A DNA stretch of 64,000 nt from Acinetobacter sp. ANC 4558 (lineage in GTDB: Bacteria > Pseudomonadota > Gammaproteobacteria > Pseudomonadales > Moraxellaceae), in contig NZ_NEGH01000003.1 in assembly GCF_002135375.1 (NCBI RefSeq), forward strand, positions 62,001-126,000, in the 5' to 3' direction. A model generated the notes under the pieces. That model did no database searches. It was not told where the DNA came from and saw only the letters and a program-made list of their open reading frames with translations. A program made the translations under genes and the position numbers. This document shows positions 14,349-37,197 of this stretch, one piece after another (positions within the stretch are counted from its first letter, which is position 1; each line of letters starts with the position of its first letter).

Positions 14349-14707
14349 GGGGATGTTCTTGGCTTCGACGCTGGTGATGAAACTCATAGATGCATGTCGA
14401 GAGCGCATTTTCTCTCGTAAATCAAATTTGCATTTTTTAGTCGCAAACGACGAATCATACGCTCTAGCTGCCTAAGGGCAGCTTGTCCGAATCTCTGAAT
14501 ACTTGTGGTTAGAGAGTCCGACTGAAGCGCACGCACACAAGTCCGTATAAAATCAAGCCTTGGGATTTTGTACTAAATTAAGAGGATCGCGATTTGTATC
14601 CTGTTCGTCGGGTCACAAAGAGTTAAAATAATAGACGATATCTAAGCATGTAGTATTCTCGAGCGTAGTGCTGGCGGACGCGGGTTCAACTCCCGCCATC
14701 TCCACCA
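14349..14707 (+). ncRNA. ssrA: Transfer-messenger RNA (tmRNA)
   Basis: The RNA starts GGGGATGTTCTTGGCTTCGA and ends in the T-arm GGTTCAACTCCCGCC and CTCCACCA, forming the tRNA-like domain; its length of about 359 bases is normal. The tag reading frame at 14443-14475 encodes ANDESYALAA and stops at TAA. A TATACT -10 box sits at 14330-14335. tmRNA rescues stalled ribosomes and tags their products for degradation. The 3' end is the attachment site of the island that follows, and the integration restores the full CCA end. Confidence 0.97.
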
Positions 14708-14708
14708 A
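14694..14708 (+). other. attL core at the ssrA 3' end
   Basis: CGCCATCTCCACCAA, the last 14 bases of ssrA plus one, is repeated exactly at 47143-47157. Integrase genes of this type commonly use the tmRNA 3' end, and int begins 184 bases downstream. Confidence 0.85.
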
Positions 14709-14891: not shown

Positions 14892-16028
14892 ATGAAGCTC
14901 ACAGATACCGAATGTAGAAAAGCACAGCCTCAAGATAAGCGTTATCGTCTTTCAGATGAAAATGGCCTGTCATTATTAGTCACACCAGCTGGGCAAAAAT
15001 ACTGGAATGTACGTTATACAGTTCATGGTGAGCGTAAGTCGGAGTCACTTGGTCCATACCCTGAACTAAGTTTAAAGAAAGCAAGAGAGCTTGCACTTGA
15101 ACTGAAATACAAACACTCTAAATCTGTTTTGCACCAAGATATAAAACCATTTTTTAAAGAGGTTGCAGAGGATTGGTTTGAGAACCAAAGAGAAACTTGG
15201 TCATCTAAACATATTAGTAATGTGCGAGCATCGTTAGATGAGCTTTATATTTCTCTAGCAAACAAGCGCATTAATCAAATTCAAGCACCAGAAATTTTAC
15301 AGATTATTAAAAAGATTGAAGCTAGAGGCTCATTAGAGGTGGCAAAGCGTACTTTGTCACGTTGTGGCATGGTGATGAAGTATGCAATTGCACATGGCTA
15401 TCGATATGATAATCCTGCAAGTGATTTGGTTTATGCACTTAAGAATAAAAAAGTGAAGAATTTGGCTTCACTACCTGAAAGTGAAATGCCTGAGTTTCTT
15501 AGACGGATTAAAGCCTATCCAGCAGATGCTCAGACTCACCATGCAATCATTCTGATTATGTTGACTGGCGTTCGAGTAAGTGAGTTATTGCAAGCACGTT
15601 GGGATGAATTTGATCTAGAAGAGCGTAAGTGGGATATTCCTGCTGAACGGATGAAGAATGGTTTACCCCATCGTGTACCCTTAACGAATATGATGATTGA
15701 TGAACTTCAAGCATTACGTTTAACACATAATCAAGATTTGTTATTTCCACACCGTTTAAATAATAAAGAGTCTATGCGTAGTGAATCAATTTTAGCTGTA
15801 ATTAAACGTTCTGGTTATACAGGTCGAATGACGACACATGGTTTCAGATCACTCTTCAGTACAGTGCTGAATGAGTCAAATTTATTTAATCCTGATGCGA
15901 TTGAACGTCAGCTTGCCCATGTGCCACAGAACCGCATTCGTTCCGCATATAACCGAGCACAGTATTGGGATGAGCGTGTAAAGATCATGGAGTGGTACGG
16001 TAAAAAAATAAAAGAATGGCTCGTTTAA
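14892..16028 (+). CDS. int: Tyrosine integrase, P4-like
   Basis: This 378-aa site-specific recombinase catalyses integration of the island at ssrA. The N-terminal DUF4102-type arm-binding domain (MKLTDTECRKAQPQDKRYRL and GLSLLVTPAG-KYW) is followed by a core-binding helical domain (about 85-180). The catalytic domain has R228 in TGVRVSELLQARWDEF, H316 and R319 in THGFRSLFST, a second H in LAHVPQNRI, and the nucleophile Y353 in RSAYNRAQYWDERVKIMEWY. The R-H-R-Y set is complete, so the enzyme should be active. The start ATG follows a GGGTAAATATAG leader. A small terminator overlaps the stop codon. Confidence 0.95.
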   Translation: MKLTDTECRKAQPQDKRYRLSDENGLSLLVTPAGQKYWNVRYTVHGERKSESLGPYPELSLKKARELALELKYKHSKSVLHQDIKPFFKEVAEDWFENQRETWSSKHISNVRASLDELYISLANKRINQIQAPEILQIIKKIEARGSLEVAKRTLSRCGMVMKYAIAHGYRYDNPASDLVYALKNKKVKNLASLPESEMPEFLRRIKAYPADAQTHHAIILIMLTGVRVSELLQARWDEFDLEERKWDIPAERMKNGLPHRVPLTNMMIDELQALRLTHNQDLLFPHRLNNKESMRSESILAVIKRSGYTGRMTTHGFRSLFSTVLNESNLFNPDAIERQLAHVPQNRIRSAYNRAQYWDERVKIMEWYGKKIKEWLV

Positions 16029-18805: not shown

Positions 18806-19714
18806 ATGTTAAATCATAAACAATACCGTTCTATTGATCAGTTTGTTCGTAACCTAGCAACAGGTTCCAAGAGCCAACAGCTTAACCCTACCGATTTACT
18901 TCCTGAATTTATGCTTGATTCTAGATACAAATATAGTGAAGCAATTGAGATTTATGCTGAAGTGATGCAGTTGCTTAAATCGAAAAAGGAATATGTATCT
19001 CAACATGGCATGAAGGAATATGTATTTGAGTACATTCAAAGCCAAGCGAAAAGAATTACTGATCAAGATGCTGGCTACAGACGTTGTGAAATAAAAAATC
19101 AAAATAAGTTACGAGATTATCTGACCAATCTTTTGAATCATTATGCGCGGTTGCTCTTTGTGCGTGTGGATTTTGCGATTAAGAAACAATATCAGCATGA
19201 AGTTGATATTGAAAAATTCCAAGGCTATTTACAGGTGATGTCGAATCGCTACTCCAATCAAGATGGCTATTTTTCTGGTTTACAGGGCTATGCATGGGCA
19301 ATAGAGGAAGGTATGGATAAGGGATTACATTGCCATACTTTGTTGATATTTGATGGAAATAAGCATCAACATGATTTTGGTCTTGGATTACAGATTGGGC
19401 AGTATTGGACTCAATTAACACAAGACAAGGGATGTTGTTTTATTTCTAATGATCCTGAGTATAAAAAGAAATTTATTCAGAGTGATACATTGGGTATAGG
19501 CATGATTCATCGAGATAATCCAAAAGAAGTACACAATGCCTTAAGTGCTGCTCAATATCTGGTAAACCCTGAAAAAGAGCTTCAACACCTTCGTGTTCGT
19601 CTGCCTCGAATGCGGACCTTTGGTACTGGGCAATATGTCACCAAAAATCGTAGAGGAATTGATCAGAAAAAGAACGAGTATTTGCATGGTTTTTCAGCAC
19701 AGAGCTATCTCTAA
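18806..19714 (+). CDS. YfjJ/YagK-type (inovirus Gp2-like) HUH replication-related protein
   Basis: The 302-aa protein resembles the YagK/YfjJ C-terminal domain family, common in P4-like islands and inoviruses and related to rolling-circle Rep proteins. The HUH metal motif is H175-C-H177 in GMDKGLHCHTLLIF. An upstream conserved segment LLFVRVDFAIKK and a downstream NALSAAQYLVNPEK carry other family signatures. Such proteins are thought to nick or bind a replication origin, but activity is rarely shown. The gene is preceded by a 9-bp inverted repeat and followed by a 413-base structured gap, either of which might be its target. Confidence 0.75.
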   Translation: MLNHKQYRSIDQFVRNLATGSKSQQLNPTDLLPEFMLDSRYKYSEAIEIYAEVMQLLKSKKEYVSQHGMKEYVFEYIQSQAKRITDQDAGYRRCEIKNQNKLRDYLTNLLNHYARLLFVRVDFAIKKQYQHEVDIEKFQGYLQVMSNRYSNQDGYFSGLQGYAWAIEEGMDKGLHCHTLLIFDGNKHQHDFGLGLQIGQYWTQLTQDKGCCFISNDPEYKKKFIQSDTLGIGMIHRDNPKEVHNALSAAQYLVNPEKELQHLRVRLPRMRTFGTGQYVTKNRRGIDQKKNEYLHGFSAQSYL

Positions 19715-19775
19715 GCTTGACGATATTCCTTTAGCTGATTATTCTTGCCCTACTGACCTACATTGTCAGTCGGTT

Positions 19776-19969
19776 TTGACAGACCGCTATCCTAAGTGCA
19801 CTAAAAGATCTCTTCTTTTGGTGTGTGCCCTCGTGCTCCCTCTGCGGTAGAACGGGAGGGGGACACCTTCGGGTGTGCTGATTCTTAGGTTCAGTCTGTC
19901 AACCCTCTTTCGTTCTGCCACCATAATCAATTGACAGTGATTTGGTAGAACTTCTTGATACCTAAGGAG
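19776..19969 (+). ncRNA. Structured segment with two mutually exclusive pairings (candidate regulatory RNA)
   Basis: The segment is clearly more GC-rich than its surroundings. Arm 1 (19776-19796, TTGACAGAC..CCTAAG) can pair with arm 2 (19884-19902, CTTAGG..GTCTGTCAA). Arm 2 can instead pair with arm 3 (TTGACAG at 19931-19937 and ACCTAAG at 19960-19966). Inside the first pairing lie CTCCC/GGGAG (19836-19858) and ACACC-TTCG-GGTGT (19863-19876), a stable UUCG tetraloop hairpin. GTTCTGCCA/TGGTAGAAC (19912-19951) adds another stem. Arm 3 overlaps AAGGAG (19964-19969), the ribosome site of a 21-codon frame. This is the layout of a translational switch. A DNA origin of the HUH protein is the main alternative. 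Confidence 0.5.
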
Positions 19970-19975
19970 TCCGCC

Positions 19976-20041
19976 ATGCGAACTTATTTTAAAAATAATT
20001 TTCTATTCTCTTTATTTTCATCCATTCCCATCTTGATTTAG
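19976..20041 (+). CDS. Possible 21-aa hydrophobic peptide
   Basis: ATG at 19976 follows an excellent AAGGAG ribosome site with 6-base spacing and encodes MRTYFKNNFLFSLFSSIPIL plus Ile, then TAG. The peptide is short, basic at the N-terminus and hydrophobic after. It may be a leader peptide of the structured segment upstream, a small membrane toxin, or the left-over start of a lost gene. The strong ribosome site is the only real support. Confidence 0.35.
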   Translation: MRTYFKNNFLFSLFSSIPILI

Positions 20042-20127
20042 TCAGGTATTGGCACATTGTTGTGAATAGCTTTTTAAGTACTTCACAATAATCAAAATTG
20101 AATGATGAATAATTAGAGGGAAATCCC

Positions 20128-20430
20128 GTGTCCTATTTTAATTTGGCTACTGCACCAAAATATCCTTATTTTTCTATTTTTAAGATTCTATGCGTTGCAA
20201 TACTAACGATGCTATTGAGTGCTTGTGCCCCTAAAGTTGAACGCCAGTTCAAACAAGGTTGTAAAGAAGCAGGAGGTAATAATGCCTTCTGTTCATGTGT
20301 CTACGATAAATTAGAAGCACATTACGGTACTCAGACACTCAAAGATATTGAAGATATTTATAAAGTCCCTGCTGACTTTAATGAGCGTGGTCAGGCCTAC
20401 ACGCTGAAATGTATCCATAAATTGAAATAA
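20128..20430 (+). CDS. Small island lipoprotein with four cysteines
   Basis: The 100-aa product has a membrane helix (about residues 18-32) ending in a lipobox LLSAC, so it is a probable lipoprotein with mature Cys33. The mature part has three more cysteines (FKQGCKEAGGNNAFCSCVYDKL) and resembles short periplasmic proteins with paired CxxxC-type helices. No function is known to me. It starts with GTG after AGAGGG. It heads a run of small membrane-associated genes in the island core. Confidence 0.7.
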   Translation: MSYFNLATAPKYPYFSIFKILCVAILTMLLSACAPKVERQFKQGCKEAGGNNAFCSCVYDKLEAHYGTQTLKDIEDIYKVPADFNERGQAYTLKCIHKLK

Positions 20431-20462
20431 AAAAATAATTCAAGTATTTAGGATTTTAAACA

Positions 20463-20609
20463 ATGAGAAATTTTATTGGTTTCTATGTCATCGTATTGCT
20501 GGGTTATTGGCTTTATTTGATTTATAGCTATCCAGATTTGTATTCTAAAGCCTACCTGTTCGGTAAGGCATTAACGTGGCCTTTTCAGTTGTTGGGTTGG
20601 ATTTTTTAA
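20463..20609 (+). CDS. 48-aa membrane protein
   Basis: A short frame encodes MRNFIGFYVIVLLGYWLYLI and on to 48 residues, ending LLGWIF. It has one clear membrane helix (about 5-22) and a second hydrophobic tail. It lies in the 207-base gap between the lipoprotein and the J-domain gene, on the same strand, and fills most of that gap. Such tiny proteins are typical of this island core type, and no function can be given. Confidence 0.5.
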   Translation: MRNFIGFYVIVLLGYWLYLIYSYPDLYSKAYLFGKALTWPFQLLGWIF

Positions 20610-20637
20610 AGCTCAACACTGACGATCAGGATCAATT

Positions 20638-21309
20638 ATGGCCCAAATTACTTTTCAACATTTTTTACAACAGACTGTTTTGAGGCATCATCTCAAAGCA
20701 CAACTCGGTATTTATATTACACCGGATATCCCTTATAAAAAGCGCTTAGGTGCACAATATTATCTACCAGAGCAGATCAATCACTCAGCTATACTTTTAC
20801 TAGTTGATGACACGGTATTCGGTAGTGCTAAGGCTGGATTAGTTGTAACTGACACAGGATTATATTATCGAGCAGATTTTGAATCGATGTCTCATTACCC
20901 TTTTCAAATGTTACAGTCTATTGAAGCTAAGCTGGGCTTAATCAATCATGATCTTATTTTGAATCATCAAATACAGTTAAATTTCACACAGCTTTCAAGC
21001 TCATCCATACAGATACTTGCTCAAGTACTCGATGCTTTTCTACAGCAATTACATCATCACGATGAGCACAAGCAATACGTTGATCGTGATGCAATGTCTG
21101 TTGTACACGCCTGTAAATTATTCGAATTACAGCCAGAGCAATTGAATAGCCTAACCCTTAAACAGGCATATCGAAAAAAGATAGCAATATTTCATCCTGA
21201 TCAGTATCACAATTTACCCTTGGCAGTACAGGAGCTCATTGCTGATCATGCTCAACAGCTCAATCAAGCACGTGAAGTATTACAAGAGTGGATTCGATAT
21301 TCAGAATAA
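20638..21309 (+). CDS. J-domain protein
   Basis: This 223-aa protein ends in a DnaJ-like domain (about 168-220): LTLKQAYRKKIAIFHPDQYH with the HPD tripeptide at 186-188, followed by a helix III with QLNQAREVLQEW. J-domains stimulate the ATPase of a DnaK chaperone. The N-terminal two thirds has no recognised domain and may select the client. Similar genes occur in island and plasmid cores beside YqaJ and DUF932 genes, suggesting a role in element replication or recombination. That link is inference. Confidence 0.75.
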   Translation: MAQITFQHFLQQTVLRHHLKAQLGIYITPDIPYKKRLGAQYYLPEQINHSAILLLVDDTVFGSAKAGLVVTDTGLYYRADFESMSHYPFQMLQSIEAKLGLINHDLILNHQIQLNFTQLSSSSIQILAQVLDAFLQQLHHHDEHKQYVDRDAMSVVHACKLFELQPEQLNSLTLKQAYRKKIAIFHPDQYHNLPLAVQELIADHAQQLNQAREVLQEWIRYSE

Positions 21310-21447
21310 ATAAATTTCAGATACATATTACCCAGATGAAGACCGGAAATTTATTTATCGGTCGTACTTATACATTCACAACATGATGATGTTTATTCTA
21401 TTGCGTTTGGAAAAAACGATTCATTATTTCCATAGTGGGAACAAAAA

Positions 21448-21810
21448 ATGAAAATATTCATTTGGACATTTTTAATTCTTCTTATATCCATATCGACATT
21501 AACTGCATGTGGCTCTTCTTCTTTAGATCCAGATACATTTAGTGTAGAAATTTCAGTACAAGATAATAGTAATTGGTGGTCTGGTGCTCAGACTGTTTCA
21601 GTATTGATGATCCGTTCTAATGTCGCTGAACAAATAGAGGTCACCAATGTTACGGTCAATAATGGCCAATGTGGTTATCAAAATATAAATTTCCCACGCT
21701 ATTTTCAAATGGGACAAATCTTAAAATTACAATTGAAATGTCATGTCAATAACGTAGTACAAGTCGATGTAGAAACCACTCAAGGCCAGCTTAGCTACCA
21801 GTTTAATTAA
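21448..21810 (+). CDS. Small island lipoprotein
   Basis: The 120-aa product begins with a type II signal peptide MKIFIWTFLILLISISTLTA and then Cys21, with the lipobox LTAC. The mature part is beta-rich (SVEISVQDNSNWWSGAQTVS, then VEVTNVTVNNGQCGYQ) with two further cysteines that could form a disulphide. No family is recognised. It ends 24 bases before a strong terminator at 21835-21869, which closes this small group of genes. Confidence 0.65.
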   Translation: MKIFIWTFLILLISISTLTACGSSSLDPDTFSVEISVQDNSNWWSGAQTVSVLMIRSNVAEQIEVTNVTVNNGQCGYQNINFPRYFQMGQILKLQLKCHVNNVVQVDVETTQGQLSYQFN

Positions 21811-21834
21811 TAGCTAACAACAGAGAAAGAATTT

Positions 21835-21869
21835 AAAAGCCATGTCCTGCAAAGGGCATGGCTTTTTTT
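21835..21869 (+). terminator. Terminator after the second lipoprotein gene
   Basis: AAAAGCCATG and CATGGCTTTT flank a 12-base loop, followed by more T. It is a strong intrinsic terminator. Confidence 0.85.
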
Positions 21870-21892
21870 ATGACTGTTTAGAGGAAAAAATA

Positions 21893-22219
21893 ATGAAATT
21901 TTGTCCATATTGTGGATCAGAGCAATTAATCCGTATTGATCGTATATCAACAGAAAGTACTGGCACATCTGGTGCTTTCTTTTCTTCAGCCAATATTACT
22001 GCCATCTGTACTCAATTAGCACGAGGCATGAAAGTACCTCCATTACTAGGTACAGCAGTAGGTATTGTAGTTAGTGGTGTTGCTTTGGTGATTCAAGAGC
22101 ATTTTACGCCTAAAAAACTTTCATCCTTCATATCGATGATGTTTTGTACTAGTTGTCAACAAAGCTTTGATTGTCCAAATCATCATGCTCAATCATCACA
22201 TTCAGATAATAGACTTTAA
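21893..22219 (+). CDS. Small zinc-ribbon membrane protein
   Basis: The 108-aa product starts MKFCPYCGSEQLIRIDRIST, a CxxC zinc-ribbon half, and ends with a second CTSCQQSFDCPNHH containing CxxC, so the two ends likely share one zinc ion. A hydrophobic, glycine-rich segment (LGTAVGIVVSGVALVIQ, about residues 48-70) lies between. The ATG at 21893 follows GAGGAAAAAA; the longer upstream frame would start inside the preceding terminator and is rejected. Function is unknown. It precedes the DUF932 gene by 13 bases. Confidence 0.65.
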   Translation: MKFCPYCGSEQLIRIDRISTESTGTSGAFFSSANITAICTQLARGMKVPPLLGTAVGIVVSGVALVIQEHFTPKKLSSFISMMFCTSCQQSFDCPNHHAQSSHSDNRL

Positions 22220-22232
22220 GGAGATTCTCATC

Positions 22233-23270
22233 ATGGCACATCAAATTGAACAAATGGCTTACGTTGGTGAAACACCTTGGCATGGTTTAGGAAATCAATT
22301 GACTGAACATCAACCCATTGAAGTCTGGGCTAAACAGGCAGGTATGGATTGGCGAATTGAATCTTCAGATGTCAGCTATATGGCAAAGAATGAACGTGGT
22401 CAAAGCATTATTATGCCTTTTGAAGAGCAACGTGTGCTGTATCGCTCTGATACGCATGCACCTTTATCCGTTGTGAGCCAACGCTATCAAGAGGTTCAAC
22501 CTATCGAAATTCTAGAGTTTTATCGGGATTTGACTGAACAATCCGGCTTTGAACTCGAAACTGCTGGAGTATTGAAAGGTGGTAAGAAACTGTGGGCTTT
22601 AGCACGTACAGGGCAATCTACAGCGTTAAAAGGCAAAGATGTCAGTCATGGTTATATTCTGCTGGCAACCGCTTGTGATGGCAGTTTGGCGACCACAGCT
22701 CAATTTACCTCAATTCGTGTAGTCTGTAATAACACCTTAGCCATTGCCCTTAAGGGGGCAAATGCCAGTGCCGGTGTAGTCAAAGTTCCACATAGCACCA
22801 AGTTTGATGCGGATAAGGTCAAACAACAACTTGGTCTTTCAGTGAATAACTGGCATGAGCATATGTATGAAATGAAACAGCTGACTCAGCGCAAAGTATC
22901 ACAACAAGAAGCGGCTGCTTATTTCGACTCCGTGTTTAACAACAGCACAATGGTGATGATTGACGCTGAAGATAACTTGATTCAGTTCTATCGTCAGGTT
23001 GCCTCAAATGCTCAAAATCAAGCGAATAAGACGGAACCAAATGGTCGTGCAATGACCAAGGCGATGAACATGTTTAATGGTCAAGGACGAGGTGCAGAGC
23101 TTTCGTCAGCCAAAGATACCGCTTATGGCTTACTGTGCGCCATGACTGAGTTTGTGGACCATGAGCGTCGTGCGATGAGTACTGATCATCGTTTAGATTC
23201 CGCATGGTTTGGTGCAGGTGCAGGATTAAAGCAACGTGCCTTAGATAACGCATTACAACTTATAGCCTAA
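22233..23270 (+). CDS. DUF932 domain protein
   Basis: The protein of 345 aa matches the DUF932 family found in phages, plasmids and integrative elements. Typical features are ETPWHGLGNQLTE near the start, PLSVVSQRYQEVQPIEILEF, and CDGSLATTAQFTSIRVVCNN. DUF932 genes are nearly always near recombination genes, and the neighbouring YqaJ exonuclease gene fits, but the biochemical role is unknown. The ATG at 22233 follows AAGGAG at good spacing, which decides the start against an in-frame upstream codon. A terminator at 23317-23347 follows. Confidence 0.85.
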   Translation: MAHQIEQMAYVGETPWHGLGNQLTEHQPIEVWAKQAGMDWRIESSDVSYMAKNERGQSIIMPFEEQRVLYRSDTHAPLSVVSQRYQEVQPIEILEFYRDLTEQSGFELETAGVLKGGKKLWALARTGQSTALKGKDVSHGYILLATACDGSLATTAQFTSIRVVCNNTLAIALKGANASAGVVKVPHSTKFDADKVKQQLGLSVNNWHEHMYEMKQLTQRKVSQQEAAAYFDSVFNNSTMVMIDAEDNLIQFYRQVASNAQNQANKTEPNGRAMTKAMNMFNGQGRGAELSSAKDTAYGLLCAMTEFVDHERRAMSTDHRLDSAWFGAGAGLKQRALDNALQLIA

Positions 23271-23316
23271 GTTATTTGAAAATTACGCCTAAACATTAAG
23301 GCGATCTCATAATGAT

Positions 23317-23347
23317 CTGTCTGACATTCGTCAGACAGGTTTTTTTT
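23317..23347 (+). terminator. Terminator between DUF932 and yqaJ genes
   Basis: CTGTCTGAC-ATTC-GTCAGACAG, then G and eight T. It is a perfect 9-bp stem with a T tract. Confidence 0.88.
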
Positions 23348-23389
23348 ATGTCGTTTATTTGCATCGCATTCAACGATGAGGAAAAAATC

Positions 23390-24448
23390 ATGAATCCAAA
23401 TAATATATCAACTCAATCACAGCCAGTACTTTCATCGGGTGCTGTTCTTTCAGAATTGATCACGCATAAAAAAGCGAATTCAGCCAAACGTTTAGTCAAT
23501 ACTAAAAATATGGCTTATCAAGAGTGGCTTGAAGTTAGAAAACAGGGTATTGGCAGTAGTGATGCCGCAACCGCCTGTGGTTTGAACCCTTATATGTCGA
23601 TGCTTGAACTTTGGATGATCAAAACAGGACGGCAAACACAGTCGATTGAAGATGAAAGTTCTGGTGTTGCTCCACTGTATTGGGGCAAACAACTCGAACC
23701 ATTGGTCGCTGAGTATTACAGCATGCATACCAATAATAAGGTACGCCGAGTTAATGCGGTGTTACAGCATCCTGATCCTGATAAACATTTTATGCTGGCT
23801 AATCTCGATTATGCCGTTGTTGGAACTGATGAGGTGCAAATTCTCGAGTGTAAGACAGCAGGGCAACATGGTATCAAGCTTTGGCGTGATGGTGTGCCCT
23901 TGTATGTACTGTGTCAGGTACAACATCAGCTGGCAGTTACAGGGAAACAAGCAGCGCATGTTTGTGTATTACTGTGTAGTCACGAAACCAAGATCTTTAA
24001 GGTCTCTCGTGATGAAGCGGTCATTGAACAGATGATTCAGGCAGAGCGTTATTTTTGGGACTGTGTGATAAGCGATACGCCACCTTCTGTCGATGCCAGT
24101 ACTTCTGCTGCAAAAGTGATTCAGCAATTGTATCCAGCACATATCCCACTTTCAGTTGAGGATTTATCCGAGCTTCCTGAAGCCAATCAATTGTTTGAGC
24201 AGTTGATTCAAAGTAAGCAACAGATTGAAGTTCATCAAGAGATTTTTGATCAAAGTAAACATCAGATTCAAATGTTGATGAAAGATGCAGAGCGTGCGCT
24301 ATTCAAAGCTGGCTCAGTGATTTGGAAACGATCTCAAGACAGTATAAGTTTAGATACGAAAGCTTTATTGAAAGCTCAGCCTGAATTACTCAGCCAGTAT
24401 CCCTTACATAGAGCAGGGAGCCGTCGCTTCAATATCTATACGGAGTAA
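23390..24448 (+). CDS. YqaJ-type (lambda exonuclease-like) viral recombinase
   Basis: This 352-aa protein has the YqaJ nuclease domain in its first two thirds. YQEWLEVRKQGIGSSDAATA gives the conserved R and GGSD-like motif, followed by LYWGKQLEPLVAEYY, then MLANLDYAV with the first acidic residue and VQILECKTA with the E-x-K pair of the PD-(D/E)xK fold. It would degrade one DNA strand to make single-stranded tails for recombination, with a RecT-like partner; none was recognised here. The C-terminal third is helical. The ATG at 23390 follows GAGGAAAAAATC; the longer frame would start inside the terminator. Confidence 0.88.
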   Translation: MNPNNISTQSQPVLSSGAVLSELITHKKANSAKRLVNTKNMAYQEWLEVRKQGIGSSDAATACGLNPYMSMLELWMIKTGRQTQSIEDESSGVAPLYWGKQLEPLVAEYYSMHTNNKVRRVNAVLQHPDPDKHFMLANLDYAVVGTDEVQILECKTAGQHGIKLWRDGVPLYVLCQVQHQLAVTGKQAAHVCVLLCSHETKIFKVSRDEAVIEQMIQAERYFWDCVISDTPPSVDASTSAAKVIQQLYPAHIPLSVEDLSELPEANQLFEQLIQSKQQIEVHQEIFDQSKHQIQMLMKDAERALFKAGSVIWKRSQDSISLDTKALLKAQPELLSQYPLHRAGSRRFNIYTE

Positions 24449-24496
24449 TTCATCTCCATATTGCTCCAATCCAAAAACAGCAAAGCCGTCCCGTTT

Positions 24497-24523
24497 GCCC
24501 TTCCTCCATCATGGAGGAAGGGC
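24497..24523 (+). promoter_or_regulatory. 11-bp hairpin holding GGAGGAAGGG
   Basis: GCCCTTCCTCC-ATCAT-GGAGGAAGGGC is a perfect inverted repeat without a T run. The right arm is itself a strong ribosome-site-like sequence that the left arm would mask. It lies between yqaJ and a small, frame-disrupted gene. Confidence 0.55.
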
Positions 24524-24549
24524 GTGAGAACAGCTTTGCTTCTTCAACA

Positions 24550-24699
24550 TGCCTAAAAAAGAAAGAAATGCGGAACTTTTTCGTCTTTTTGGAGTTACCT
24601 CCTAAAAAGAAACGATCTGGTCCCAAGGCAAAAGAGTCATGTAGTCAAAACATATCTGAAATCGATAAAAAATTAATTCAAGGAAATCACCATGATTAA
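24550..24699 (+). pseudogene. Small basic gene split by a +1 frame change
   Basis: From ATG 24550 the frame reads MPKKERNAELFRLFGVTS then stops at TAA. Shifting +1 just before the stop continues PPKKKRSGPKAKESCSQNIS and on to the end at 24699, which overlaps the next gene by 8 bases. The two halves together make a plausible ~48-aa basic protein. An alternative frame in phase with the second half can start at 24511 inside the hairpin. It could be a mutated gene, a programmed frameshift, or a sequencing error. Confidence 0.35.
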
Positions 24700-25567
24700 A
24701 GGTTTAGCTATTACCCCACCGATTCTAGGGCGAATCAGCATTGGTCGAGTGGTTGAGAAAAATGGTAAACGTGTACCTGAAAAAGATGACCAATTTACCA
24801 TTACCAGTCAGATCCAAAATAAAGAAGGTTGGGTGAAACATCCTTTAGATGAACAACTACGAGCACAAGCTCCAAACCAAAAACTACGCAGTATTCCTGT
24901 ACGCATGCTATTTAATGATCCTGATTTGAATCTGCGAGCTGAATACAGTTTATTTGATCGTCAGACAGGACGGCCTGTTTGTGTTGGAAATGGAGAAACC
25001 TGTCAACGGATGACAGCACAAGGAGTAGAGCAACATTCCTGTCCATCACCTGATCTGTGTGCTTTAGCGCAAGGTGGGCACTGTAAACCCTATGGGCGTT
25101 TGTATGCCAATTTAGATCAGTCAGATGAAATGGGCAGTTTTATTTTTAGAACCACTGGATTTAACAGTATTCGAACTCTCGCAGCTCGATTGCGTTACTA
25201 CCATGCAGCTTCCAATGGTTTGCTTTCATGCCTGCCACTGCAATTGACCTTACGTGGAAAGAGTACGACTCAAAGCTATCGTCAACCTGTTTACTACGTG
25301 GATCTCACCTTACGTGATGGTACAGATTTACAGTCAGCGATTCAAACTGCTCAAGAAATTCATCAACACAGTCAGCAAGCAGGTTTTAATCAGCAAGCTT
25401 TGGATCAGGTCGCAAGTGAGGGGTTAAGGAATGCACAGTTTATACAAGAGCCAATGGAGATATTAGATGAGTTTTATCACATTGGGCAGCATGACCAACC
25501 TACGATGGAAACAGTAAATGTAGGTTTATCACAACAACTGAAACAATCGGTTCAGCAAGTTAGTTAA
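24692..25567 (+). CDS. Cysteine-rich phage-type protein (often labelled hydrolase or metal-binding)
   Basis: This 291-aa protein resembles a family in integrative elements and phages that looks like Gp3-type recombination directionality factors. The middle has a cysteine cluster with probable metal ligands: CVGNGETCQRM, HSCPSPDLCALAQGGHCKPYG. It is followed by a conserved FRTTGFNSIRTLAARLRYY segment. Its place after yqaJ and before alpA fits a recombination or excision role; this is inference. The start ATG at 24692 follows AAGGAAATCACC. It overlaps the end of the preceding small gene by 8 bases. Confidence 0.7.
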   Translation: MIKGLAITPPILGRISIGRVVEKNGKRVPEKDDQFTITSQIQNKEGWVKHPLDEQLRAQAPNQKLRSIPVRMLFNDPDLNLRAEYSLFDRQTGRPVCVGNGETCQRMTAQGVEQHSCPSPDLCALAQGGHCKPYGRLYANLDQSDEMGSFIFRTTGFNSIRTLAARLRYYHAASNGLLSCLPLQLTLRGKSTTQSYRQPVYYVDLTLRDGTDLQSAIQTAQEIHQHSQQAGFNQQALDQVASEGLRNAQFIQEPMEILDEFYHIGQHDQPTMETVNVGLSQQLKQSVQQVS

Positions 25568-25643
25568 GAGAGTTAATTTTTTACGGAAGTCCTTATTCAT
25601 TTGAGCGAACAACCGCTCGCATCAATGATTAGGAGTAAAGCTC

Positions 25644-25871
25644 ATGAATGCGTTTATCGGTCAAACATTTCAAATGAATCAACTCATCAACATTAAGCAG
25701 GTTGTAGAATTTGTAGGAGTAGCACGTTCTACCATCTATGAAATGATGGATGAGAACTCACCTTACTACGACCCTACTTTTCCAAAGAAAGTCAAAATTA
25801 GCCAAAATCGTATCGGTTGGTCAGCTTATGAGATTAATCAATGGATTGAAAAAAAGCTTGCTGAGCGTTAA
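25644..25871 (+). CDS. AlpA family regulator / excisionase
   Basis: The 75-aa protein is a MerR-like winged helix of the AlpA type: LINIKQVVEFVGVARSTIYE is the recognition unit, FPKKVKISQNRIGW the wing, and AYEINQWIEKKLAER the last helix. In P4-like elements AlpA controls int expression and excision. TTAGGAG precedes the ATG. It is the last gene of the element core: a strong terminator follows at once, and the cargo begins beyond it. Confidence 0.9.
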   Translation: MNAFIGQTFQMNQLINIKQVVEFVGVARSTIYEMMDENSPYYDPTFPKKVKISQNRIGWSAYEINQWIEKKLAER

Positions 25872-30603: not shown

Positions 30604-33600
30604 ATGAGTACTCAGTTTTCTGCACTTGTTTCTAAACTCAAAGAGATTTTTCAAATCAATCGTCCTGATTTGGATTTTGGAGTTTATCGTATTTTAAATG
30701 CACGTAGTGCAGAAATTTCAGAGTTTTTGGATAAGCGTTTAAAAACCAAAGTAGAACAATATCTTGGTGAAGCAAAGTCAGGTCTGGATGAAAATGCCAT
30801 AAAAGAATTAGAGGCTGAGCTGAAAGCAGAATTTGGTAAACGTGCGTTTAATGAGCAAGGGCAACTTATTGATGCTGAAGCAATTGAAAGCGCATTAGGT
30901 CAAAAATATATTGCTCTAACCCAAGCTGATGCACATCAAATGACAGATCAGTCACAAGTGTATAGCCATTTGTTGACATTCTTTAGTCGTTATTATGATG
31001 ATGGAGATTTTATTAGCCAACGTCGTTATAAGGGTGATACCTATGCTATTCCTTACTCTGGTGAGGAAGTCATGTTGCATTGGGCAAACAAAGACCAGTA
31101 CTACACCAAGTCTGGTGAGATGTTTAGCAACTATCGTTTTAAGTTGAATGATGAGCGTTCAGTTTTATTCCGTTTGGTGAGCGCAGATACAGCGCGTGAA
31201 AACCGTAAAGATAACGACAAAGACCGTCGTTTTATTATTGTGACAGAACCAAAGACTTTCATTCGTGTAGATGAAGAAGGTGAAGAGTTTGAGGAAACAA
31301 TCGTTCCGTTCTCTATTCAAAATAATGAACTGACTATTCTTTTTGAATATGCAACCTTACCTAAAGGCTCTAAGCAAGAAACACTAAATACGGAATCGTA
31401 TAACAAAATTGTGAGTGCAGATGTTTTAACTGCTGACTGGCTAAATGATTTAGTACAACTTGCACCGACAGAAAAAGAACCAAAGCGTACAGTGTTGCAA
31501 AAGCACTTGAGTACCTATACGCAAAAAAATACAGCAGATTATTTTATTCATAAAGACTTAGGTAGATTTTTGCGTCATGAGCTTGATTTTTATATTAAAA
31601 ATGAAGTAATGCATTTAGATGATGTGGTGAGTACTGATCAATTTATTCAGATTGAACGCCAACTCAGTATTATCAAGTGTTTACGTCAAATTGGTTTAGA
31701 AATCATTAGCTTTTTAGCGTCGCTTGAAGATTTTCAGAAAAAGTTGTGGCTAAAGAAAAAGTTTGTCGTTAGTGCTGAGTATTGTATTACTTTAGACCGA
31801 GTGGATGAGTCCTTGTATGCTGAAATTGCAGAAAATACAGCGCAGTGGCAACAATGGGATGATTTAGGTTTTAAAGGCACAGATGCAGTTTGGGGAACGA
31901 TTGATTATTTAAAACAGCACCAAGCTTTGATGGTGGATACGTCATTATTCAGTATTGAGTTTAAAGCGAAGCTTTTACAAAAAATTGATGATTTGGATGC
32001 CCAAACAGATGGGTTGATCATTAATAGCGATAATTTTCAAGGAATCAATTTACTAGCAGAGAAATACTATTCTCGATTAAATAGTATTTATATTGATCCA
32101 CCTTATAATACTGATGCATCTGCTATTTTATATAAAAATGGTTTCAAGAAAAGTTCTTGGGCAACTTTAATGCATAACAGAGTTGAAAAAGCTAAGGACT
32201 TATTAAATCAAACAGGTATTATTTGTTTAGCAATTGATGATGAGCAAGTCAGTGAATTGCGCTCTATTGCAGAAGAATTTTTTATAAAGCAGATAGGAGT
32301 GGCACCAGTTCGATCTAATCCAGCAGGACGAAAGACGAAAGGTAAATTTGCACCAGCACATGAATATGCTTTGTTTTATGCTAAATCAGAAAATACTGTG
32401 CCACTTAGTTTAGATAAAAGTGAGAAATCTTTAGCACGATATCCGAAAGAAGATAGCAAAGGACGTTTCTCGTGGGCAAACTTTATTAGATCTGGAAATA
32501 ATGATAAAAGAGAAGATCGTCCTAAACTTTATTACCCAATTTTTGTTAGTGATAATGATCAAATTAGAGTTCCTAAAATGGAATGGTCTGATTTGGAGGG
32601 GCAATACGTATTACTTGAGCAACCCCTACCAAACGAAACTATTGTTTTTCCTGATGTTAATAAGGATGGAAAAATTATACAAAAAAATTGGCAAAGAGGT
32701 AACCAACGAGTTGGAACAGAACTTGAAGAATATAGAATTCGCAGAGATCAGGATAATAAGATTTCAATAGATTTTAAAATTAGAATGGATGTAACAGCAT
32801 TACCAATAACTTGGTGGGATAAATCTACTTACGCATCTTCTAATTATGGAGCGTTAGAACTCAAAAATTTATTTGGTGAGAAATCTTTTGATTTTGCTAA
32901 AGCCCATGACTTAGTTTTAGATTGTTTAAGAACAAGCGGAGCTAAGTTAGAAAATAGTAATATTCTGGACTTCTTTGCTGGTTCAGGTACAACAGCTCAT
33001 GCCACTATTGCCTTAAATCGTGAAGACCGAGGTAGTCGTAAATATATCCTTGTGGAACAAGGCGAATATTTTGATACCGTCATTAAGCCACGTATTCAAA
33101 AAGTAGTGTATTCAGCAGACTGGAAAGATGGTAATCCAACCAATCCTGAGTCTGGTATCAGCCATTGCTTAAAAGTGATGAAACTCGAAAGTTATGAAGA
33201 TACGCTCAATAACTTAGAGTTGGTGCGTAAAGGTGCTCAACAGACACTTTTAGCCGAGCAACAAACATCAACCAAGCCTGAAGATCAAAATGCTTACAGT
33301 GACTATCTCATGCACTATATGCTTGAGCTAGAAAGCAAAGATTCATTACTGAATGTTAAAGACTTCCTCAAACCATTTAGCTATCAAATGAATATCACCA
33401 CGGATAGCGCTGGTGCGTTTGAACGTAAAAATATTGACTTGGTTGAAACCTTTAACTATCTCATTGGAATGAATGTTCAAGAAGCAGATTATCAGTTAGA
33501 CAAAGGATATGTACAAATCACAGGTAAATTACGTACAGGTGAGTACACGACTGTTCTATGGCGTGATTGCGACAAAATTGGCTATGCAGAACTCGATCAA

Positions 33601-33768
33601 TTACTGGCAAAACTTAAAATTAATCCAAACGATGGTGAGTACCAATTGATTTATATCAATGGCGATCACAATGTTGCAAGTAAATACATCAGTAAAGAGG
33701 GTGAGGAAAAGCAACTCAAAGTCCGTTCAATTGAACAAACCTTCTTAAAGAATATGTTTGAGGAGTAA
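30604..33768 (+). CDS. Large adenine DNA methyltransferase (type III Mod / DISARM MI-like)
   Basis: This 1054-aa N6-adenine methylase is of the beta arrangement: catalytic motif IV DPPYNTDASA at about residues 498-507 comes before the SAM-binding motif I DFFAGSGTTAHATIALNRED near 790. About 480 residues of N-terminal extension and ~200 C-terminal residues make it much longer than ordinary Mod subunits (~600-700 aa), as in DISARM drmMI and Hma methylases. It should mark host DNA so that the helicase/nuclease partner spares it. It has its own 143-base leader after the SNF2 gene and a Res-like gene 6 bases downstream. Confidence 0.85.
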   Translation: MSTQFSALVSKLKEIFQINRPDLDFGVYRILNARSAEISEFLDKRLKTKVEQYLGEAKSGLDENAIKELEAELKAEFGKRAFNEQGQLIDAEAIESALGQKYIALTQADAHQMTDQSQVYSHLLTFFSRYYDDGDFISQRRYKGDTYAIPYSGEEVMLHWANKDQYYTKSGEMFSNYRFKLNDERSVLFRLVSADTARENRKDNDKDRRFIIVTEPKTFIRVDEEGEEFEETIVPFSIQNNELTILFEYATLPKGSKQETLNTESYNKIVSADVLTADWLNDLVQLAPTEKEPKRTVLQKHLSTYTQKNTADYFIHKDLGRFLRHELDFYIKNEVMHLDDVVSTDQFIQIERQLSIIKCLRQIGLEIISFLASLEDFQKKLWLKKKFVVSAEYCITLDRVDESLYAEIAENTAQWQQWDDLGFKGTDAVWGTIDYLKQHQALMVDTSLFSIEFKAKLLQKIDDLDAQTDGLIINSDNFQGINLLAEKYYSRLNSIYIDPPYNTDASAILYKNGFKKSSWATLMHNRVEKAKDLLNQTGIICLAIDDEQVSELRSIAEEFFIKQIGVAPVRSNPAGRKTKGKFAPAHEYALFYAKSENTVPLSLDKSEKSLARYPKEDSKGRFSWANFIRSGNNDKREDRPKLYYPIFVSDNDQIRVPKMEWSDLEGQYVLLEQPLPNETIVFPDVNKDGKIIQKNWQRGNQRVGTELEEYRIRRDQDNKISIDFKIRMDVTALPITWWDKSTYASSNYGALELKNLFGEKSFDFAKAHDLVLDCLRTSGAKLENSNILDFFAGSGTTAHATIALNREDRGSRKYILVEQGEYFDTVIKPRIQKVVYSADWKDGNPTNPESGISHCLKVMKLESYEDTLNNLELVRKGAQQTLLAEQQTSTKPEDQNAYSDYLMHYMLELESKDSLLNVKDFLKPFSYQMNITTDSAGAFERKNIDLVETFNYLIGMNVQEADYQLDKGYVQITGKLRTGEYTTVLWRDCDKIGYAELDQLLAKLKINPNDGEYQLIYINGDHNVASKYISKEGEEKQLKVRSIEQTFLKNMFEE

Positions 33769-33774
33769 TGTACT

Positions 33775-36700
33775 GTGGCAAAAGCTCCTCAAGCAAAAAC
33801 GAAAGCGGTTAAAGTCAATTTCCACGAGCAATTGATTTTAAATAAATGGTTGTGGTCGAAGTTTAATCCGAATCGTTTGGAAGGCATGAAACAACAGCTT
33901 GATTATCCTCAGTTTGAGGGGATCGAGTATGAAGGTGATAATGCAGGGCAAACGAAATTCTTTAGTGTGATCAGCAATACCTTGTTTAATAAGCAAGTTG
34001 TAGATATCGATGTTCTACGTCGCTATGACTTAAACATTGTGAAGCACTGGCAAAAAATCACGGAACAACGTAATGAAATAGAAGGGCATGTTTTAAACCT
34101 AAAATATTTTCAATACCTTTCATTGCTTTTTACAGAACTGTATTTAGATCAATATTTTAATCATCAAGCTGTCATGCTCAATGAGCTGAATGTTGAACTT
34201 GAACAATATAATGATGATCAGAAAATTGATGCAGATCAATTTCAGCAATATTTACCTGAAGACCTAAATAAAATTGGTTATTGGAATGCAACGGGCAGTG
34301 GTAAAACACTGCTTATGCATGTCAATATTTTGCAGTATTTGGATTATTTCCAAAATCAAAATGGCGATAGCACTTATCCAGACCAAATCATTTTACTTAC
34401 ACCGAATGAAGGTTTGAGTGAACAGCATTTGCGAGAACTCACTGACTCAGGTTTTCAAGCAACTTTGTTCGATAAACAAAAGAGTCGTAATAGCTTGTAT
34501 CGTGATGAAATTCAAATCATCGATATGAATAAACTGAGTGATACCGACGGTGATAAAACCGTTGCGACCATGAGCTTGGAAGGAAAGAATCTTGTTCTGA
34601 TCGATGAAGGACACCGTGGTACGAGTAGTAGTGCAGGTGCTTGGATGGAACGTCGAGATATTCTCACTAAAGATGGCTTTAGTTTTGAATACTCGGCTAC
34701 CTTTGGTCAAGCCGTGAGTAAGGCAGACAACGTCTATAAACGCTTTGAAGATGCCAAAAAACAGAAAGCCAAAATGCTGTATGGTGTGGCTATTAATAAG
34801 CTAACCGAAGAACAGAAAAAAAATATTCAGCTTGATGATTTGGAACAGCAAAAATATCGTCGGGAAGCGCTTCGAGAGGTATATGCTAAAAGTATTTTAT
34901 TCGATTATTCGTACAAATATTTCTATGCAGATGGCTATGGTAAAGAAGTCAATATTCTGAACATGAAAGAATATCATGAAGATGATGAGCGTAATCTTTA
35001 TCTTACAGCTTGTTTACTATCTTTCTATCAACAGCAATATCTATTTAAAAAGAATCAGGCAAAGCTGGCTAAATTTAATATTGAAAAACCACTGTGGGTA
35101 TTTGTTGGAAATAAAGTCAATGATGATGATTCTGATATTTTAGCCATTGTGAAATTCTTGGCTGACTTTTTAGATGCTTCTCGTAAGAGCAAGGTGATTG
35201 GTTGGCTCAATGATTTGATTACCAATACATCTCGTTTGGTCGATACCAAAGGTATCAATATTTTTGCAAATCGATTTGCACCTTTACACGGTCAAAATGT
35301 AACTGATCTTTATCAAGATATTTTAAAAAGTTTTTTTAACGCTACAACCAATCAACGTTTGAATGTAGTACGTATTACGGCGAATAAAGGTGAGTTGCGT
35401 TTACAGGTGGGGGAAAGTACGCCTTTTGCTGTTATTAATGTGGGTGATGAAAAAGGCTTATACGATAATTGTGAAGAATCTAGTAAAACGCATTATCTAA
35501 ATGCACGTACTGATGATTTTGCGGAGTCATTATTTCCGACATTAAATAATGATGATAGTGAAACACATCTTCTCATTGGTTCTCGTAAGTTTACCGAGGG
35601 GTGGAGTAGTTGGCGTGTCTCTACCATGGGATTATTGAACATGGGGACAGGTGAAGGTGCACAGATTATTCAGCTCTTTGGTCGTGGTGTGCGATTAAAA
35701 GGTGAGAATTTTTCTTTAAAAAGAACACCGAGAGAAATCTATAGTAAGGCTGAATATAAAGGTATGCATTTAGACTTAATGCAAACTATTAATATTTTTG
35801 GTTTACGTGCTGACTATATGGAAAAATTCCGTGACTACTTGAATGATGAAGGCATTATTCTGAATCAGGATTTAGTCACTTTAGATTTTCCAACAAATAA
35901 AATTAAAGCGCCTCGTTTAAAAACGCTGACCTTGAAAGATGGCTATAAAGATAATCAAGCCAATGGTTTTAAGGCTCAGTTAAAGCTCTCGATGTTTAAA
36001 ATTCCAAAACAATACGAAGGTAAAATCAAAAAACCTTTTGTCGTTTTGGATTTGTATCCTCGCTTGCAAGCCTTTCATACCGATAAGTCAAAGCGTCAAA
36101 CAGATGTTAAAGACAAGCGTCAAGAGCATGAGATTTCACCTAAAATCATGTGTATGTTTGATTTTGATGAAATTTATTTGAAACTTCAGCAATATAAGTT
36201 CCAGCGTGGATATAGCAACCTACAATTGAATGTTGATGATTTACAGGAGTTTTGTTTAAGACGTATCAAATCATCTATGGAAGACTGGTATAAGCTTTTG
36301 ATTGATAGATCAGAATTATCTAGTGATGTAGGTGGAATTAAAAAACAGCAAGCTATTCTAACGGAGCTTTTACAATCTTATATGGATAAGTTCTATCATG
36401 CGATTAAAAATGCCTATGAAGGGCAGTTTTATGAAGTGACGGAATTTAGCTTAGATGATAAAGATTTACCTGTGCAAATTTGTGAGCAATATACGCTTAC
36501 AGCGAAAGAAGGTAAAAATAATGAAGCTCAAGAAGTATTTGACCGATTAGAAACATTGAAAGAATTGGTTAGTAAAGGTGATGTTGAAAAATTGGTGCCT
36601 TGGAAGGAAGATGGAAGTTTCAGAGCAATTACATTCGATCGTCACCTGTTTTATCCATTATTGGATAAAAAGGATGAAAGTCTTCCGTTTACATGGTCGC

Positions 36701-37197
36701 CAATGTTGTTTGACTATACGAGTCATACACAAAGTAGTGAAGTAAAGTTTGTTTTAGATTTACAAGCTTTTATCAATACACCAGATGCTAATGATGTTTT
36801 GAAAGATTATGAACTCTATTTGTTGCGTAATGCTGATAATAAGTATCGTGGATTGGGTTTTGCTTTAGCTGGTAATTTTTACCCTGACTTTTTATTGTGG
36901 TTAGTGAATAAACAAACAGGGCAACAATATTTAACTTTAGTTGATCCTAAAGGCATCAGAAATATGAATCATGACGATGCTAAAATTGAGTTCTATAAAG
37001 AGATCAAAAATATTGAGGTTAAGCTTGAACATTCTGACTTAACATTAAATAGTTTTATTTTATCTATTACACCAATGAGAGATATTCTGAATAATACTCT
37101 TTCTGAGGAAGAATTTGCTGAAAAGAATGTCTTATTTATGGTAGGCAATGGTACAGTTTATCTTGGACAGATGTTGAAAAAAATACTCCAGCTTTAA
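33775..37197 (+). CDS. Res-like DEAD/DEAH helicase with a C-terminal nuclease-like domain
   Basis: This 1140-aa SF2 ATPase resembles type III restriction Res subunits. Motif I is GYWNATGSGKTLLMH (about 167-181), motif II LVLIDEGHRGTSS (DEGH rather than DEAH, near 276), motif V/VI-like segment ENLFGRGVRLKG appears as QIIQLFGRGVRLKG. Near the C-terminus FYPDFLLWL and YLTLVDPKG (about 1035-1060) fit the D and D-x-K of a PD-(D/E)xK nuclease. It starts with GTG 6 bases after the methylase stop. Its own stop codon lies in the loop of the terminator hairpin at 37181-37212. With the Mod-like neighbour it should form the restriction pair. Confidence 0.85.
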   Translation: MAKAPQAKTKAVKVNFHEQLILNKWLWSKFNPNRLEGMKQQLDYPQFEGIEYEGDNAGQTKFFSVISNTLFNKQVVDIDVLRRYDLNIVKHWQKITEQRNEIEGHVLNLKYFQYLSLLFTELYLDQYFNHQAVMLNELNVELEQYNDDQKIDADQFQQYLPEDLNKIGYWNATGSGKTLLMHVNILQYLDYFQNQNGDSTYPDQIILLTPNEGLSEQHLRELTDSGFQATLFDKQKSRNSLYRDEIQIIDMNKLSDTDGDKTVATMSLEGKNLVLIDEGHRGTSSSAGAWMERRDILTKDGFSFEYSATFGQAVSKADNVYKRFEDAKKQKAKMLYGVAINKLTEEQKKNIQLDDLEQQKYRREALREVYAKSILFDYSYKYFYADGYGKEVNILNMKEYHEDDERNLYLTACLLSFYQQQYLFKKNQAKLAKFNIEKPLWVFVGNKVNDDDSDILAIVKFLADFLDASRKSKVIGWLNDLITNTSRLVDTKGINIFANRFAPLHGQNVTDLYQDILKSFFNATTNQRLNVVRITANKGELRLQVGESTPFAVINVGDEKGLYDNCEESSKTHYLNARTDDFAESLFPTLNNDDSETHLLIGSRKFTEGWSSWRVSTMGLLNMGTGEGAQIIQLFGRGVRLKGENFSLKRTPREIYSKAEYKGMHLDLMQTINIFGLRADYMEKFRDYLNDEGIILNQDLVTLDFPTNKIKAPRLKTLTLKDGYKDNQANGFKAQLKLSMFKIPKQYEGKIKKPFVVLDLYPRLQAFHTDKSKRQTDVKDKRQEHEISPKIMCMFDFDEIYLKLQQYKFQRGYSNLQLNVDDLQEFCLRRIKSSMEDWYKLLIDRSELSSDVGGIKKQQAILTELLQSYMDKFYHAIKNAYEGQFYEVTEFSLDDKDLPVQICEQYTLTAKEGKNNEAQEVFDRLETLKELVSKGDVEKLVPWKEDGSFRAITFDRHLFYPLLDKKDESLPFTWSPMLFDYTSHTQSSEVKFVLDLQAFINTPDANDVLKDYELYLLRNADNKYRGLGFALAGNFYPDFLLWLVNKQTGQQYLTLVDPKGIRNMNHDDAKIEFYKEIKNIEVKLEHSDLTLNSFILSITPMRDILNNTLSEEEFAEKNVLFMVGNGTVYLGQMLKKILQL

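Follow-up and report, generated by a model that had tools for sequence, protein, structure and literature searches.

A C4 antisense-RNA cassette, probably a self-silencing switch of the P1/P7/P4 kind, at the head of an operon in an ssrA-integrated island of Acinetobacter

The known members of the C4 family of antisense RNAs act in trans as processed RNAs, and dependence on Rho is an established feature of the P1 and P4 systems. In phage P1, the GenBank order of the elements is a1-b1-C4-a2-b2-icd, C4 is annotated as a 77-nt RNA, and both a sites read TTGACAG (TTAGCAG in P7); the gene downstream in P1 and P7 is ant. The Rfam model of C4 (RF01695) also covers the CI RNA of the seqA-seqC immunity system of satellite phage P4, where the guides match both an upstream and a downstream site and the downstream b match includes the AGGA that precedes an ATG. 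Antisense-driven early termination is the model given for P4 in the available portion of PMC4825925. The same portion describes the isrK-orf45-anrP locus of the Salmonella prophage Gifsy-1, which combines an upstream arm complementary to a downstream segment with a short leader ORF and for which two alternative leader structures were demonstrated by mutants and native gels; in Gifsy-1, a terminated upstream RNA activates translation in trans, an effect not known from the locus described here. Another related case is that of the Group 1 sRNAs of Acinetobacter baumannii AB5075, which consist of a C4 motif and an upstream hairpin, Region 1. According to the available text of PMC5320573, the homologous C4 regions are expressed and apparently processed in AB5075 RNA-seq, collect more reads than the part preceding them and, with two exceptions, start at GGW; that text leaves Region 1 unexplained and suggests phage or host targets.

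We analyzed a segment (19776-19969) of a 64,000-nucleotide stretch of DNA from Acinetobacter sp. ANC 4558, hereafter the window, that had been read in a first-pass annotation as a switch-like structured segment of a satellite-like island, with three arms whose mutually exclusive pairings could cover a ribosome site. The complementarities are exact and lie where described, and a structured leader RNA in a mobile island is supported. The arms were read directly from the sequence and located by script: arm 1 consists of TTGACAG (19776-19782) and CCTAAG (19791-19796), arm 2 of loop b TTCTTAGGT (19882-19890) and segment a CTGTCAA (19896-19902), and arm 3 of TTGACAG (19931-19937) and ACCTAAGGA (19960-19968). 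When both flanks were dinucleotide-shuffled 2000 times with the guides fixed, an upstream match was obtained 50 times, a downstream match once, and both together never. Arm 3 lies over the ribosome site as proposed, the AAGGA of the Shine-Dalgarno sequence AAGGAG (19964-19969) being part of the downstream b target, ahead of a 21-codon ORF. The nested UUCG hairpin was located at 19863-19876, and the GC content, 48.5% for the whole segment and 55.8% for 19846-19922, clearly exceeds that of the 500-nt flanks (38.8% and 33.2%). Arm 2 is the guide of a C4 RNA, arm 1 is an upstream target resembling a1/b1, and arm 3 is the downstream a2/b2 target. The elements of the leader are as follows.

19717-19745, + strand: TTGACG-17-TATTCT, candidate sigma-70 promoter for the C4 leader that agrees with the consensus at 9 of 12 positions
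19739-19790, + strand: c4-a1b1-like target domain (RF03163) with a'1 in the hairpin loop, 26.3 bits, E 1.5e-4
19776-19782, + strand: a'1 TTGACAG, pairs with C4 segment a, same letters as a1 of phage P1
19791-19796, + strand: b'1 CCTAAG, partner of C4 loop b by guide-target pairing
19846-19922, + strand: C4 antisense RNA, predicted 77-nt mature form starting with GGU, from the RF01695 match and the covarying fold
19882-19890, + strand: C4 loop b, anti-Shine-Dalgarno guide, 9 bp with b'2 including one G-U
19896-19902, + strand: C4 segment a, specificity guide CTGTCAA, identical to that of phage P1
19912-19919, + strand: c, the 3' strand of C4 stem P1, with c' as an alternative partner to its own 5' strand
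19931-19937, + strand: downstream target a'2 (TTGACAG), enclosed by the c:c' hairpin as its loop, from pairing and covariation
19944-19951, + strand: c' GGTAGAAC, complement of the C4 3' strand within the leader, from pairing and covariation
19960-19968, + strand: b'2, downstream target over the Shine-Dalgarno AAGGA, by guide-target pairing
19976-20041, + strand: 21-codon leader ORF (MRTYFKNNFLFSLFSSIPILI*), predicted primary target of repression, starting after the b'2 pairing

The identity of the central element follows from the Rfam comparison, where RF01695 matches positions 19840-19925 with 64.3 bits against a gathering score of 45 and is the only family that passes its cut-off over the segment; phages P1, P7 and P4, used as positive controls, match RF01695 as well, and P1 and P7 also match c4-a1b1. 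The structured RNA anticipated in the first-pass annotation is thus a C4 antisense RNA, and its suggestion of a riboswitch finds no counterpart, given that no riboswitch family was detected in the window at the gathering threshold or over 19600-20150 with E values up to 1. The predicted C4 is as long as the C4 annotated in P1, has the same three-stem fold as the C4 of P1 and P7, and starts with GGU, in agreement with the GGW rule in the available text of PMC5320573. The fold of 19845-19922 taken alone is compact, with a predicted energy of -39.2 kcal/mol, and in an alignment of 68 sequences 97.3% of the cells of the three stems are paired and 23 of the 27 pairs show changes on both sides; none of the measures was reached by any of 500 shuffles. 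The upstream target domain scores 26.3 bits against a gathering score of 46.7 and was found at a permissive threshold, so that, in contrast to P1 and P7, we refer to it only as a1b1-like, even though its pairing with C4 is present and covaries. The candidate promoter adjoins the stop of the upstream gene on its 3' side, and is weak on its own because the region contains 3 such sites when 3.3 are expected from shuffling.

Altogether, the window element is well supported as an ordinary new member of the C4 family. It has the gene order of P1, with the 21-codon ORF in the place of icd, and the same letters in both a sites, with an island operon downstream instead of ant. From P4 it differs in the guide letters and in the controlled genes. 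The similarity to the Group 1 sRNAs extends to the loop motif CUACAUU of Region 1, reported in the available text of PMC5320573 and also present in the window. We read Region 1 of the Group 1 sRNAs as an a1b1 target and many of their copies as leaders of TetR genes.

We propose, with a probability of roughly 0.9, that the segment is a C4 antisense-RNA cassette that works as a self-silencing switch of the P1/P7/P4 kind at the head of an operon in an island integrated at ssrA. In the most likely scenario, cleavage releases C4 from the leader, and C4 then base-pairs with its targets and shuts off the downstream operon. The leader would be transcribed from just upstream of 19776; C4 would fold within it and be cut out, probably by RNase P at GGU, a step borrowed from the relatives treated in the available text of PMC5320573. 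The free C4 would then pair through segment a and loop b with a'2 and b'2, cover the Shine-Dalgarno sequence and presumably block translation of the 21-codon ORF, whereupon the untranslated leader, by analogy with P1 and P4, would end early through Rho or polarity and the operon from 20128 onward would stay off. The upstream arm a'1b'1 could capture the same guides; this capture would go together with c:c' pairing in the full leader, yielding a second fold without C4 that might serve as the working ON state.

This interpretation is also supported by comparison within the genus. RF01695 is present in 101 of the 119 Acinetobacter genomes searched, with up to 26 matches per genome and two in the genome from which the window comes. 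In total, 149 distinct C4 loci in 66 genomes were analyzed; they represent the higher-scoring portion of a longer list and were assembled from 120 fetched regions and the loci from genome searches after removal of duplicates (L001, L002 and L003 were dropped for this reason and the window itself was used; the C4 end was fixed at 87 nt for L004-L031). The conserved unit is approximately 250 nt long, reaching from some 105 nt ahead of the C4 start to some 140 nt beyond it, and is found in varied surroundings. The main alleles of segment a are CTGCTAA, as in P7 (58 loci), and CTGTCAA, as in P1 and the window (43 loci). The P4 guide, ATTCTCA, is found in L026, L071, L073 and L122, so that three enterobacterial guide alleles, those of P1, P7 and P4, recur in Acinetobacter.

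Conservation and covariation of the three arms are present across these loci. An exact complement of the locus's own segment a lies upstream in 128 of the 149 loci and downstream in 116. By fixed criteria that allow G-U pairs, 128 loci have both target sites, 17 only the upstream one, one only the downstream one and three neither; among the 128, at least L043, L060 and L076 appear to have accidental downstream sites, accepted through G-U pairs. Where a downstream site is present, the start codon nearly always follows the b'2 pairing by 5-13 nt (125 of 129 loci). In a permutation test on the 83 distinct (b,a) pairs, which treats loci as independent regardless of relatedness, the pairing of guides with the targets of their own locus exceeded the null expectation for segment a upstream (mean 6.83 vs 5.41) and downstream (6.81 vs 5.57) as well as for loop b upstream (8.35 vs 6.66) and downstream (8.94 vs 6.73), none of 2000 permutations reaching the observed value in any of the four comparisons; the counts given above refer to all 149 loci. 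For column-wise analysis, we used 68 rows, namely the 70 loci with distinct (b,a) pairs minus L043, L052 and L060, in which sites were misassigned, plus the window. In this alignment, helix a:a'1 is paired in 93.5% of the cells with 5 of 7 pairs changed on both sides, and helix a:a'2 in 94.7% with 6 of 7. The b helices are low by this measure (61.3% for b:b'1 and 56.4% for b:b'2), at least in part because the loops vary in length; they are backed by the permutation test, which is alignment-free. For the target structures, the percentage of paired cells, the number of cells changed on both sides and the covariation score were reached by none of 500 shuffles, the count of pairs changed on both sides by 150 and 147, and the number of further pair types by 29 and 20. 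When the partner strand is shifted by 1-3 columns, the percentage paired, the number of cells changed on both sides and the covariation score fall in each of the three structures; two further measures for the downstream targets are matched or surpassed at shifts of +1 to +3 columns.

Beyond the guide-target helices, a third helix, c:c', emerged from the comparison. It joins 19912-19919 with 19944-19951, between a'2 and b'2, so that a'2 is enclosed in the loop, and in the window runs for 9 bp with one G-U. In 108 distinct cases, the mean pairing of c with its own c' is 8.65 bp, compared to 6.50 +/- 0.13 (maximum 6.95) in 3000 permutations; 94.3% of the cells are paired and 6 of 8 pairs are changed on both sides. 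In P4, c:c' consists of 9 uninterrupted pairs; P1 and P7 reach at most 5 bp without interruption, and by eye P1 has one mismatch in nine. Formation of c:c' excludes closure of the outer stem of C4. In agreement with the pairing of arm 1 and arm 2 proposed in the first-pass annotation, the predicted lowest-energy fold of the window leader (19739-19990, -83.6 kcal/mol) contains arm 1:arm 2 and c:c' rather than C4. Energy predictions of this kind, which carry no kinetics, give a similar picture for 144 distinct leaders: in 113, at least 5 of the 7 bases of segment a are paired with the upstream region, in 111 of these 113 the 3' end of C4 also pairs with the downstream leader, 28 keep the outer stem of C4 in the lowest-energy fold, and three do neither; the P1 leader is predicted in the C4 fold. 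The mean stabilization by this cross-pairing is -10.4 kcal/mol for a leader's own arms, -4.9 when the upstream arm is foreign and -8.2 when the downstream arm is, and the respective fractions of leaders below -2 kcal/mol are 98%, 82% and 92%; swapped leaders are thus often stabilized too, and what is specific is how large the gain is rather than whether there is one. Cofolding of mature C4 with either target yielded no net gain of energy in a nested model, a result that is uninformative because such a model cannot represent kissing contacts, and it was not used as support.

These observations bear on the most serious alternative, a purely cis-acting translational attenuator or ligand-binding riboswitch, in which arm 2 pairs with either arm 1 or arm 3 of the same molecule, thereby exposing or covering the ribosome site, and no separate small RNA takes part. 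The mutually exclusive pairings that it requires are real and covary, segment a is predicted to pair upstream in the majority of full leaders (the 113 noted above), and the available portion of PMC4825925 documents two alternative structures in the related isrK-orf45 leader of Gifsy-1. Against it, the segment contains a full C4 above the Rfam cut-off, the homologues appear to be processed (as far as the available text of PMC5320573 goes), and riboswitch families have no match; we consider this explanation improbable. The earlier two-state idea nevertheless appears reasonable and is partly right, without a ligand, because the predicted fold with arm 1:arm 2 and c:c' excludes C4: two alternative folds are predicted, and the core is an antisense RNA instead of a ligand sensor.

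A slightly less probable alternative is that C4 has been redirected to host mRNAs, which the available text of PMC5320573 proposes for the Group 1 sRNAs of A. baumannii. It could draw on the variation of the a and b guides between copies, on the presence of up to 26 matches in one genome, and on the 13 of 43 TetR-linked loci whose own downstream target is unrecognizable. Guide variation is, however, mirrored in the flanking targets that each locus carries, and host-mRNA targeting is therefore not needed to explain it; additional targets at a distance may nevertheless exist. In three genomes, all 65 analyzed C4s (25, 20 and 20; the first figure is 25 of 26 because one sub-threshold match in genome G083 was left out) differ in (b,a) within their genome, and in 53 of the 65 segment a pairs over 7 of 7 bases with the own upstream region. 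Judged by loop b alone, orthogonality within a genome is weak: upstream, the own b is best or tied for best at 8 of 25, 7 of 20 and 6 of 20 sites, and downstream at 4, 6 and 7, respectively; we do not claim that loop b alone insulates the copies within a genome. Finally, the suggestion that the segment is a rolling-circle origin, serving the neighboring HUH-like replication protein of the YagK/YfjJ type (18806-19714) as double-strand origin or nick site, is very improbable: the gene, with its YagK_YfjJ_C domain, ends only 61 nt upstream of arm 1, but among the 145 other loci for which 1200 nt or more of upstream sequence could be examined only 9 have a homologue within 3 kb upstream, as does none of the 43 TetR-linked ones, and the covariation is that of RNA pairs, G-U among them, and keeps in step with where an ORF starts.

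A downstream ORF of at least 80 aa lies within 1.6 kb in 145 of the 149 loci, and the most common first ORF after C4 encodes a TetR-type regulator (43 loci in 12 genomes), at a distance of 178-321 nt in 41 loci and 642-643 nt in two; all four C4-linked TetRs that were scanned contain the TetR_N domain. In 22 loci, including the window, the first ORF is lipoprotein-like. We delineated a TetR subfamily as proteins scoring at least 200 bits with a profile, A1, built from 16 C4-linked TetRs. In six genomes with 130 C4 matches, 88 of the 89 subfamily members are preceded on their own strand by a C4 at a distance of 92-383 nt, compared to none of the 24 lower-scoring TetRs; 11 of the 16 profile members come from these six genomes, and without them the count is 77 of 78. 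One of the 24 is a broken fragment scoring 138 bits that may be a decayed member of the subfamily. The same arrangement of C4 and TetR, with TetR scores of 318-321 bits, was found in L152 and L153, from records named A. baumannii, and on the contig of L155. The latter is labelled Acinetobacter phage MD-2021a and belongs to a phage collection, and carries ordinary bacterial genes; L152 comes from a chromosome-sized record in a plasmid collection. A contig search returned, among the best 80 of 170 relatives, 45 loci that match over most of the length with at least 46% identity, all in Acinetobacter, mostly in named species of the A. calcoaceticus-baumannii complex and none in A. baumannii genomes.

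The TetR-linked cassettes are not confined to a separate guide repertoire, 5 of their 18 (b,a) pairs occurring also in loci where TetR is not the first ORF. In the 13 of 43 TetR-linked loci already mentioned, the own downstream target is unrecognizable, which the simple repression model does not explain. L033, L035, L036, L042, L056, L059 and similar loci are linked to TetR and have no recognizable downstream target, and in these the upstream target covaries; L035 and L042, for instance, differ by matching changes in loop b and b'1. Such upstream-only loci suggest that the upstream arm has a function of its own. In some cases, C4 copies follow one another closely ahead of TetR, as in L074 (G083:C1:255601-256181) and at G008:C1:2707289-2707979, and some of the clustered copies have no recognizable targets; a similar cluster, ABUWs066-069, exists in AB5075 according to the available text of PMC5320573.

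These regulators bring to mind the TTTRs of A. baumannii, described in the available text of PMC9802203 as 11 TetRs and a pseudogene that switch AB5075 between the opaque and translucent states at random. Using a single fitted scale factor, we converted the 12 published TTTR tags to map positions and compared them with 18 Group 1 C4 positions, derived from the 21 sRNAs in the available Table 1 of PMC5320573 with a cluster of four merged. Each tag is nearest to a different Group 1 C4, at a mean distance of 10.9 kb, as compared to a mean of 92 kb (minimum 24 in 5000) for random tag sets and 97 kb (minimum 41 in 3000) for random sets of 18 other sRNAs; this is an agreement of positions, not of sequence identity. 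On these published map positions, the C4-linked TetR subfamily appears to be that of the virulence-switch TTTRs. No paper in the open-access literature that we searched makes this connection; the words 'upstream' and 'antisense' are absent from the available text of PMC9802203, as are 'C4 antisense' and 'TTTR' from that of the A. baumannii RNA interactome papers PMC12802169 and PMC11472050. A separate candidate was SrvS, the aadB-leader sRNA that raises TTTR switching (available text of PMC9802203), considered as a decoy for C4. Comparison of the 16 (b,a) pairs from 40 of the 43 TetR-linked loci with the p1AB5075 leader, with no random background, gave runs of 5-9 for b and 5-6 for a, never a full a match, and the idea was dropped as unsupported.

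A broader hypothesis, to which we would give even odds, brings these strands together: a mobile-element immunity switch adopted by the host would, as C4 cassettes of the window's kind, lead the genes of a TetR subfamily, the two-fold leader would drive the random switching-on of the TTTRs in single cells, and c:c' would be a helix overlooked throughout the C4 family. Each cassette would carry its own guide-target code, the C4 fold would be OFF and the fold with arm 1:arm 2 and c:c' ON; the scope would extend to nearly all members of this one TetR subfamily in the A. baumannii group and, for c:c', to C4/P4-CI switches. In the 13 TetR-linked loci that have no recognizable downstream target, the upstream arm would have to do the work. 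Taken alone, the window element is one more C4 switch, and the third helix and the TetR link add interest to it. The hypothesis offers a testable answer to two questions in A. baumannii, the role of about 20 C4-like sRNAs and the random switching-on of TTTRs; should every TTTR sit behind a C4 leader, phenotypic switching would turn into a question of RNA switches, open to immediate study with existing RNA-seq. In addition, c:c' provides a structural hypothesis for how immunity RNAs of the P1/P7/P4 type might decide whether the repressor RNA is made or the operon is left on.

The genomic context of the window C4 is that of a mobile island, the main features of which are the following.

14694-47157, no strand: mobile island with the 15-bp direct repeat CGCCATCTCCACCAA on either side, one copy in the 3' end of ssrA (14694-14708) and the other at 47143-47157
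14892-16028: integrase, within the island
20128-25871, + strand: downstream operon, predicted to be controlled by C4
27557-30460: DrmD-like helicase, island cargo
30604-37197: type III restriction-modification pair, island cargo
37213-39150: GmrSD/HEC-05-like protein, island cargo

The operon encodes a small lipoprotein-like ORF, two uncharacterized ORFs, a DUF932 protein, a RecE/YqaJ-type exonuclease, a Gp3-like protein and AlpA, and the order C4, small ORFs, DUF932, exonuclease is found also on an A. johnsonii plasmid. The integrase, the AlpA-type regulator and the attachment repeats are traits of P4-type satellites; we class the window island only as a mobile island. It carries defense genes, and its cargo further includes two Fic proteins; a 1719-aa ORF lies at 39452. 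A C4 located before a TetR gene in another Acinetobacter genome (G007:C1:2347910-2347995) shares both its b and its a guide with the window C4, which makes cross-regulation with an island of the window type conceivable.
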